From: Conexibacter arvalis
GTDB lineage: Bacteria; Actinomycetota; Thermoleophilia; Solirubrobacterales; Solirubrobacteraceae
DNA: 64,000 nt
Assembly (NCBI RefSeq): GCF_014199525.1
Contig: NZ_JACHNU010000001.1
Span: forward strand, 310,001 to 374,000
Reading direction: 5' to 3'
Position numbers and translations under genes: made by a program. How positions within the stretch are numbered: position 1 is the stretch's first letter; each line of letters opens with the position of its first letter. The notes below the pieces were generated by a model. The model had not been told where the DNA came from. It worked only from the letters and a program-made list of their open reading frames with translations, and ran no database searches. This document shows, in pieces, positions 37,982 to 40,328 of the stretch.

Positions 37982-38407
37982 GCTGTGGGTGCGAGGGATG
38001 TACGACGGCGGCCCAGGGCGATGCGCCGACGTCCTCCGGCCGCCGCCATCGCCGCCCCGCCGCCTGCCGTCGCCGCCCCGCCGCGCGCCGTGCCGCTCCG
38101 CCGCGCGCCGTGCCGCTCCGCCGCCCGCCGTCGCCGCCCCGCCGCGCGCCGACGTCCTCCGGCCGCCGCCATCGCCGCCCCGCCGCCTGCCGTCGCCGCC
38201 CCGCCGCGCGCCATGCCGCCCCGCCGCCCGCCGTCGCCGCCCCGCCGCGCGCCATCGCCGCCCCGCCGCCCGCCGTCGCCGCCCCCCGCCGCCGTCGCCG
38301 CCCCGCCGCCGGCCGTTGCCGGCCCAGCGCGCGCCGTCGCGGCCAGTGCGGCGACGCAGCACGCGCGTTGGGCGCGCGGCGGCGCGCCTCGATGACGGTG
38401 CGGCGTC

Positions 38408-38420: not shown

Positions 38421-39509
38421 GTGCATGGCGACGACCTGACCGCGGAGGAGCGCCTGCTGCTGCGCGGCCGCCCGCCCGCGGCGGCGCTGCGCTGGGCCGC
38501 GCGGGCGGCGGGCGGCGTCGGTGCCGAGGTCGTCGCGGTCGAGGCGCTCGAAGGCGGCACCTCCTCCGCCGTCCACGCGCTCGACGTGCGCGACCGCGCC
38601 GGTCGCACGCGTGCGCTGGTCCTGCGTCGCTTCGTGCGCGCCGACTGGCTGGCCGAGGAGCCCGACGCCCCCTTGCGCGAGGCCGCCGCGCTCGACATCG
38701 TCGCGGCAGGTGGGCTCGTGGCGCCGCGGCTCGTCGCGCTCGACCCGCGGGGAGCCGAGATCGGCGACGGCAGACCGGCGCTGCTGATGACGCGCCTGCC
38801 CGGCCGCGTCGTCTGGACACCGCCACCCGACCAACTCGACACGTGGCTGCGCGGCCTCGCCGCGACGCTCCCGCAGATCCACGCAACCGTCCTCTCCTCC
38901 GCGTCGGCGCCCGCCACCCTCACGCCCCCGCCCGCTCCCACCGCGCCCACGGCCCCCGCCGCGCCCGCCGCGCCCGCCGCGCCCGCCGCGCCCACCGCGC
39001 CCACCGCGCCCGCCGCGCCCACCGCGCCCACCGCGCCCACCGCGCCCACCGCGCCCACCGCGCCCACCGCGATCGGGCGCTACTCGGACTGGGGGCTGCA
39101 CGTCGAGCGCCCGCCGGCCGGGTCGCGGCTGCCGGCGCCGACCTGGGAGCGGGCCTTCGCCGTCTTCGACCGGTCGCCGGAGGTCGGCGACAGACTGATC
39201 CACCGCGACTTCCATCCCGGCAACGTGCTCTGGCGCGACGGTCAGGTCAGCGCGATCGTCGACTGGGCGTGCGCCTCGCGAGGCCACCCGGACGCCGACG
39301 TCGGCTACTGCCGCGAGAACCTCGCCAGAGCGCATTCGGTCGCGGTCGCCGACCGCTTCCTCACCTTCCATCGCGCACTCACCGGCGCGGGCGAGCTCGA
39401 CCCGGCATGGGACGTGCGCGCCGCACTCGGCGGCTACGCCGCCGACGACCTCGTCGGCTGGTCGACGCGGGAGGACGCCTTCCTCGCGCAGGCCGTCGCG
39501 CGGCTGTAG
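38421..39509 (+). CDS. Aminoglycoside phosphotransferase-like kinase with an Ala/Thr-Pro repeat insert
   Basis: 362 residues of the APH/choline-kinase fold. The N-lobe has EALEGGTSSAVHALDVRD and a Lys/Arg strand (ALVLRRFV). The catalytic loop LIHRDFHPGNVLWRDG lies at about 258-273 (HxDxxxxN) and the metal aspartate in SAIVDWACASRGHPDADVGYC follows. Between N- and C-lobes a run of about 45 residues, TAP and AAP repeats encoded by GCGCCCACC/GCGCCCGCC units (about 38934-39070), breaks the fold. It could be a flexible linker or an error-prone repeat. Substrate may be an aminoglycoside, a sugar or an amine. A strong hairpin follows the stop. Confidence 0.88.
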   Translation: MHGDDLTAEERLLLRGRPPAAALRWAARAAGGVGAEVVAVEALEGGTSSAVHALDVRDRAGRTRALVLRRFVRADWLAEEPDAPLREAAALDIVAAGGLVAPRLVALDPRGAEIGDGRPALLMTRLPGRVVWTPPPDQLDTWLRGLAATLPQIHATVLSSASAPATLTPPPAPTAPTAPAAPAAPAAPAAPTAPTAPAAPTAPTAPTAPTAPTAPTAIGRYSDWGLHVERPPAGSRLPAPTWERAFAVFDRSPEVGDRLIHRDFHPGNVLWRDGQVSAIVDWACASRGHPDADVGYCRENLARAHSVAVADRFLTFHRALTGAGELDPAWDVRAALGGYAADDLVGWSTREDAFLAQAVARL

Positions 39510-39511
39510 CG

Positions 39512-39545
39512 GCGCGTGGCCGCTCGACGGCGAGTGGCCACGCGC
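39512..39545 (+). terminator. Strong hairpin after the phosphotransferase
   Basis: Perfect 10-bp arms GCGCGTGGCC/GGCCACGCGC, continued inside by a CTCG/CGAG stem. It starts three bases after the TAG stop and lies before the riboswitch promoter. Confidence 0.65.
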
Positions 39546-39599
39546 CGACGCCGCCCGAGCCGCGCACTTTTCCGACGCGTCGGCACTCCTCTCGTCGGG

Positions 39600-39605
39600 T
39601 AGCTT
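39600..39605 (+). promoter_or_regulatory. Probable -10 box of the riboswitch transcript
   Basis: TAGCTT, about 20 to 30 bases before the first conserved riboswitch stem, so the transcript would begin near 39612. Confidence 0.4.
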
Positions 39606-39634
39606 GCCGTCGAACTTCAAAGACGCAGCTCGCA

Positions 39635-39730
39635 TCTCGAAAGGGCAAACCACTCGCGAGGGTGGGACGCAAAGCCACGGGGCTCCAGATGGGAGGGAGC
39701 CAGCCGGGCCGCCGAAGGAGGCGTTCGAGA
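39635..39730 (+). promoter_or_regulatory. GEMM-type c-di-GMP-I riboswitch
   Basis: The core matches the GEMM consensus closely: GGGCAAACC, then CCACTC-GCGA-GGGTGG (a stem with a GNRA tetraloop), then GGGACGCAAAGCC. A second arm GGCTCC/GGAGCC and the 3-prime AGCCAGCCGGGCCGCCGA follow. Bases 39635-39641 (TCTCGAA) pair with 39724-39730 (TTCGAGA) to close the aptamer. The same TTCGAG is used in the competing hairpin just downstream. c-di-GMP riboswitches of this class control motility, biofilm and envelope genes; here the target is the secreted CAP-domain protein. This is a leader element, not a gene product. Confidence 0.9.
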
Positions 39731-39751
39731 CAGTCGCGGGCGCTCGAACGC
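39721..39751 (+). promoter_or_regulatory. Expression-platform hairpin of the riboswitch
   Basis: GCGTTCGAG, 13 bases, CTCGAACGC: perfect 9-bp arms ending three bases before the Shine-Dalgarno AAGGAG at 39754-39759. Its left arm overlaps the aptamer's closing strand, so the two structures exclude each other. If c-di-GMP stabilises the aptamer, the hairpin opens and the CAP gene should turn on (inference). Confidence 0.7.
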
Positions 39752-39767
39752 ACAAGGAGTTGTTGTC

Positions 39768-40328
39768 GTGCTTCGCTCAGTCGGGTCGCGGATGGCCGCA
39801 GCGGTCGTCGCGCTCGCCACCGGTCTCATCCTCCTCGCTACCATGCCGGCCGCCGCGCGCGCATGCGCCGGCGCCAACGCCAGCCCCGGCGCCAACCTCA
39901 AGCGCGCGAGCGCCGCGACGCTCTGCCTCCTCAACCGGCAGCGCAAGGCGCACGGCCTGCGGCCGCTCCGCGTCAACGGCGCGCTCAGAAAGGCCGCGGC
40001 ACGGCACTCCCGTGACATGGCCCGGCGGAACTTCTTCTCCCACACCTCCCCTGGCAACGTCTCGTTCGACCAGCGCATCCGACGCGCCAACTACCGTCCG
40101 CGCGGCGGCTGGTCGATCGGCGAGAACATCGCCTGGGGCAGCGGCCACCTCGCCAGCCCCGCGTCGATCGTGCGCAGCTGGATGAATAGCCCCGGTCACC
40201 GCGCCAACATCCTCAACCGCGGCTTCCGCAAGATCGGCGTCGGCGTCGCCCGCGGCGTCCCCTTCGCCGCCTCGGCCGCCGTCAGCCGCAGCGGCGGGCT
40301 CTACACGACCGACTTCGGCTCGCGCTGA
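39768..40328 (+). CDS. Secreted CAP/SCP-domain protein under c-di-GMP control
   Basis: 186 residues. The signal peptide reads VGSRMAAAVVALATGLILLATMPAAARA, cleavage near residue 32. The CAP domain occupies about 45-180: LCLLNRQRKAHGLRPLRVNGALRKAAARHSRDMARRNFFSH (the signature His and the HSRDM helix), then GENIAWG, and the SWMNSPGHRANILN helix. CAP proteins act outside the cell, often on the wall, lipids or host surfaces; here the function is unknown. GTG 39768 has a good AAGGAG eight bases upstream. The long leader is a GEMM riboswitch, so its level should follow c-di-GMP. No diguanylate cyclase gene is in the window. Confidence 0.92.
   Translation: MLRSVGSRMAAAVVALATGLILLATMPAAARACAGANASPGANLKRASAATLCLLNRQRKAHGLRPLRVNGALRKAAARHSRDMARRNFFSHTSPGNVSFDQRIRRANYRPRGGWSIGENIAWGSGHLASPASIVRSWMNSPGHRANILNRGFRKIGVGVARGVPFAASAAVSRSGGLYTTDFGSR

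Follow-up and report, generated by a model that had tools for sequence, protein, structure and literature searches.

The window analysed here is the whole stretch of 64,000 nucleotides (64 kb) of Conexibacter arvalis DNA, within which a leader RNA precedes a gene for a CAP-family protein that stands alone: on its upstream side a gene of the APH kinase-like type has its end at 39509, and from 42742 a gene for a DEAD-box helicase runs towards it. The downstream protein, assigned to the CAP family in the preliminary description, matches PF00188 with 71.7 bits (E 1.2e-19), well over the cut-off of 21.1, and thereby shares the domain of the YkwD-like CAP superfamily. Additionally, a match to the SCP domain of 4ifa_A was obtained (E 2.9e-11), and the best NCBIfam match, spore_YkwD, lies under its own cut-off (92.1 vs 171 bits). 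The residues H80, H92, E119, and H144 are invariant among five CAP homologues; conserved His and Glu residues of this kind line the CAP cavity. The nearest named relatives of the gene that carry the same leader belong to Conexibacter species. Several repeats are located further upstream, including a 12-bp perfect inverted repeat between the APH gene and the riboswitch (CGGCGCGTGGCC/GGCCACGCGCCG, 39510-39521 / 39536-39547), which is not followed by a T run, 15.6 copies of a 9-base unit (CCGCGCCCA) at 38932-39071 that encode an Ala-Pro-Thr run within the APH-like kinase gene, and a second, GC-rich array at 38039-38344. The features of the leader and the gene are as follows.

39600-39605, + strand: TAGCTT, possible -10 element, proposed from the sequence
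39626-39631, + strand: CAGCUC, hypothetical anti-Shine-Dalgarno strand (helix g, partner GAGUUG at 39757-39762)
39628-39633, + strand: GCUCGC, 5' strand of helix d (partner 39736-39741), extending helix b
39635-39641, + strand: UCUCGAA, 5' strand of helix b, overlapping P1 and kept in same-genus leaders
39635-39717, + strand: c-di-GMP-I-GGC riboswitch aptamer (RF03167, 65.8 bits)
39636-39639, + strand: CUCG, 5' strand of canonical P1 (Rfam structure line; register one base off as read from the sequence)
39713-39717, + strand: CGAAG with one bulged A, 3' strand of canonical P1 (same source and register)
39721-39751, + strand: hairpin c, perfect 9 bp, GCGUUCGAG (39721-39729) with CUCGAACGC (39743-39751), 13-nt loop
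39724-39730, + strand: UUCGAGA, shared strand, pairing with 39635-39641 (helix b) or with the other arm of hairpin c
39736-39741, + strand: GCGGGC, 3' strand of helix d, inside the loop of hairpin c
39754-39759, + strand: AAGGAG, Shine-Dalgarno element read from the sequence
39768-40328, + strand: CAP-family protein gene (PF00188), 186 aa, GTG start, signal-peptide-like N-terminus

The aptamer was identified with cmscan, in which 39635-39717 matches the whole of RF03167 (c-di-GMP-I-GGC, model positions 1-80) at 65.8 bits (E 2.6e-13), the gathering score being 59, confirming the earlier proposal of a GEMM-type c-di-GMP riboswitch; the GEMM core and a GNRA-type loop (GCGA) are both present. The general class-I model of the same clan, RF01051 (GEMM), reaches 65.5 bits, with a cut-off of 35, so that membership in class I is firm, while the subfamily label, with a margin of 0.3 bits, is a close call. 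Only one other Rfam match, of lower score and from the same clan, was found in the window. The aptamer occupies a 5' leader position on the strand of the gene, its end lying 50 nt before the GTG. G20 and C92, the c-di-GMP-contacting positions in the Vc2 structure, are G in 108 of 110 aptamers and C in all 110, respectively, and the window carries both. Presumably, G20 is also the pocket position whose change gives a response to c-AMP-GMP. The G at this position in the window argues against a related dinucleotide such as 3',3'-cGAMP as the ligand, a reading to which a very small probability is assigned, even though some class-I variants are known to respond to c-AMP-GMP via a nucleotide change in the pocket (PMC9481103). 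The host genome (5.2 Mb, 18 contigs) contains 16 GGDEF and 9 EAL matches, and c-di-GMP is thus very probably both made and degraded in this organism.

P1 closes the aptamer in the Rfam structure as a short helix directly at the pocket, with C39636, U, C, and G39639 paired to C39713, G, A, A, and G39717 in the window. A complete P1 with four of four pairs occurs in 41% of 110 leaders, compared with 14% when strands are mismatched. The strands TCTCGAA at 39635-39641 and TTCGAGA at 39724-39730, as well as the 9-bp hairpin at 39721-39751, are all present where the preliminary description placed them, but its assignment of the first two as the stem closing the aptamer was not borne out, since the stem so named takes up the 5' strand of the family's P1.

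Outside the aptamer, use of TAGCTT as a -10 element would place the transcript start near 39611-39613. A TANNNT motif is found in four of five same-genus CAP leaders, the fifth having TGGTCT, at 28-35 nt upstream of the aptamer, and a strict promoter scan returned no match. The region of hairpin c (39718-39766) has a predicted energy of -17.2 kcal/mol. The hairpin does lie beside AAGGAG as described earlier, although the gap comprises two bases (39752-39753) instead of three, and the start codon GTG (39768-39770) follows eight bases past AAGGAG. A search for an intrinsic terminator found no terminator-like site, which points to translational control.

Helix b and hairpin c cannot form together because they have one strand in common, as had been claimed, and this shared-strand pair in the window outperforms 200 shuffles of the linker (p = 0.005). 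Among the 48 long leaders searched, the pattern was recovered at p<=0.05 in 9 of the 12 CAP leaders (mean p 0.04) and in 2 of the 36 others, a frequency of about chance (mean p 0.70), with pilin and other long-spacer leaders at chance level. The predicted three-strand pattern is thus specific to CAP among long-spacer leaders. Swapping in the 5' flanks of other leaders makes a poor null, because many leaders share the same P1 strand. The comparison across relatives likewise upheld the expectation that both stems are conserved with compensatory changes: all five leaders of the Conexibacter group that precede CAP genes retain b and c, two pairs of hairpin c are altered on both sides, and helix d shows G-C in three leaders and A-U in two, with U-G/U-A at another pair. 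The same three-strand design, built from different bases, is found ahead of CAP genes in another genus, Solirubrobacter, where CUCGA/UCGAG/CUCGA of Conexibacter is replaced by CCCGA/UCGGG/CCCGA, such that stems b and c survive the same exchange of U-A to C-G. The comparative set consists of five leaders in the genus and a handful in the second, with hand-cut strands and some bulges removed, and the covariation accordingly supports the stems but is not independent proof of them; a search of genome contigs for further CAP leaders of the genus yielded no new ones.

As judged from its sequence, the window leader is a class-I c-di-GMP riboswitch of a known, Rfam-named family with a locally conserved expression platform. 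It resembles RF03167 in its whole-model match above the gathering score, its retained pocket positions, and the exported-protein gene downstream, and it differs from many relatives in its 50 nt spacer and competing stems, since the Shine-Dalgarno element of many RF03167 members in the order lies directly at the 3' strand of P1, 7-26 nt before the start. The likeliest reading is a translational riboswitch that is ordinary for this family, with a platform particular to CAP genes.

In the proposed mechanism, two alternative folds share the strand 39724-39730, and competition for it would control translation of the secreted CAP protein. In fold X, the 5' flank and the 5' strand of P1 pair with the linker through helices b and d (39628-39641 with 39724-39741), whereas in fold Y canonical P1 (39636-39639/39713-39717) is kept and hairpin c forms two bases before the Shine-Dalgarno element. 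From the known architecture of the class, c-di-GMP would be expected to stabilise P1 and hence fold Y; helices b and d would act as the ligand-free competitor of P1, and the ligand would leave the linker strand to hairpin c. The Shine-Dalgarno element would be less accessible in fold Y, with the hairpin against it and possibly 39626-39631 paired with 39757-39762, resulting in less CAP synthesis, while translation would proceed from fold X when little ligand is present. The order of the strands fits this scheme, with P1 complete first, b and d next, and the second arm of the hairpin and the Shine-Dalgarno element last. The reading that a class-I c-di-GMP riboswitch controls translation of the secreted CAP protein by strand competition, with c-di-GMP lowering CAP synthesis, is given a probability of about one half.

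The sign of control is the weakest step of this model. Ligand binding had earlier been expected to expose the ribosome-binding site, and the anatomy points the other way: helix b competes with P1, so the ligand should favour P1 together with the hairpin beside the Shine-Dalgarno element, which suggests OFF as slightly likelier than ON. With canonical P1 and hairpin c enforced for fold Y, opening the region from the Shine-Dalgarno element to the start is predicted to cost 7.7-10.4 kcal/mol, compared with 5.0-8.3 kcal/mol in fold X, and to be dearer in all five same-genus leaders, whose two folds differ by no more than about 3 kcal/mol. In Solirubrobacter, the Shine-Dalgarno element is further from the hairpin, and the predicted difference in accessibility under enforced P1 has no consistent sign. 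These energies, computed with a generic hairpin standing in for P2/P3, constitute weak evidence, as the unconstrained fold of the real leader did not recover the aptamer.

The converse arrangement, in which stem b closes the aptamer and is stabilised by c-di-GMP, so that hairpin c cannot form, the ribosome-binding site becomes free, and expression is switched ON, is regarded as less likely but as a serious alternative. Stem b has 7 bp and is extended by d, exceeding P1 (4 bp with a bulge) in length, and in calculations that do not enforce P1, 11 of 12 leaders need less energy to open the start region when b is formed. Moreover, the fold with hairpin c is predicted to be equal to or better than fold X without ligand, so that ligand would be needed to form b; such a preference would fit stabilisation of fold X by the ligand, unless folding order decides. 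However, b displaces canonical P1, a helix with family-wide support, and ties up two adenosines that the family consensus places in J1/2, leaving the 3' strand of P1 and C92 unpaired or in a small GCC/GGC hairpin.

Returning to repression by c-di-GMP, helix g would explain OFF within a three-way junction as a hypothetical contributor; it appears in three same-genus folds with one compensatory pair in five sequences, and against shuffled flanks it was not significant (p about 0.2 each). Sequestration of the start codon by the 3' arm of the hairpin was also considered and rejected, as it is seen in a chimera fold of the window leader and is inconsistent in relatives.

Approximately 110 leaders of the order Solirubrobacterales were read for their downstream genes, and they fall into two spacer types. 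In about half, the Shine-Dalgarno element lies in or just past the 3' strand of P1 and the start is 7-26 nt away; the rest, including all CAP and most pilin leaders, have spacers of 37-90 nt. Masking of the start by an extended P1 gave no class signal among 52 short-spacer leaders (mean p 0.51), although the leader before a glycosidase gene in the host genome has such an extension. This leader (L001) contains the only further riboswitch copy of the genome (C1:1318554-1318633; L001 1501-1580), located 12 nt upstream of a gene for a GHL15 glycosidase-like protein; the flank on its 5' side, GCGCAUCGG, complements the start-codon-bearing UCGAUGCGC (p about 0.02), and RF01051 scores it at 71.8 bits, above the 69.1 of RF03167. 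As most leaders of the family in the order are without the three-strand pattern and must work otherwise, the CAP aptamer might also act by other means, for example through P1 alone or RNA stability, with hairpin c as a fixed insulator or stabiliser. The joint retention and joint change of b and c in CAP leaders of two genera make this explanation unlikely, in favour of strand competition as the switch.

RF03167 matches (E<=0.001) are distributed over 129 of 232 genomes and 39 of 54 genera of the order, and over 157 of 397 genomes in a sample of the phylum. The downstream clusters comprise type IV prepilins (15), CAP proteins (13 plus one doubtful gene call), GHL15-type glycosidases (13), Glyco_hydro_42-type proteins (10), subtilases (7), and two unknown exported families (16 and 13), alongside smaller groups with polysaccharide lyase, laminin-G, and beta-helix domains. 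Nearly all of these proteins have a signal-like N-terminal segment, as judged by eye. An exported protein or type IV prepilin is therefore the rule, and the earlier view of an extracellular target as unusual does not hold. CAP homologues occur in 107 of 146 family genomes, and one genome (G077) encodes a 58%-identical CAP homologue and has no RF03167 match; the putative link between CAP and riboswitch is limited to part of the family.

Searches of the open-licence literature found neither a link of c-di-GMP riboswitches to CAP domains nor anything on Conexibacter riboswitches, and two open papers mention c-di-GMP-I-GGC in lists of models only. The Bc2 riboswitch of Bacillus thuringiensis likewise precedes a gene for a surface or extracellular protein, but its target cap is a collagen adhesion protein and not a CAP/SCP-domain protein, the similarity of names being a coincidence (PMC4933901).

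It is fairly probable that the CAP leaders of the two genera share a platform in which a linker strand is contested between the extended anti-P1 helix of b and d and a hairpin that lies at the ribosome-binding site or close to it, within an exported-protein c-di-GMP regulon that includes pilins, glycosidases, polysaccharide lyases, and subtilases, with up to ten or so riboswitch copies per genome. CAP/SCP proteins would thereby be added as putative targets of c-di-GMP riboswitch control, in a little-studied order where the class mainly precedes exported proteins, and their leaders offer a compact, conserved test case for competition between an aptamer and a distant linker strand.

Several further observations concern individual leaders and genomes. 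Ten or eleven RF03167 copies per genome were counted in G169 of the order and in G433, G474, and G592 of the phylum. The prepilin leaders L067, L068, L079, L089, L090, L092, L096, and L099 have long spacers with recurring elements of their own, such as CGCGGAGCTGG, and no CAP-like three-strand pattern. Two relatives encode a second CAP paralogue on the upstream side of their riboswitch-CAP unit (G085 C23:275713-276258; G084 C42:81573-82052). Finally, in G082 of the same genus, two aptamers of identical score are located 1.2 kb apart (L033 660-734 and 1834-1908), each preceding a paralogous polysaccharide-lyase-like gene, and they represent a duplicated riboswitch-gene unit.
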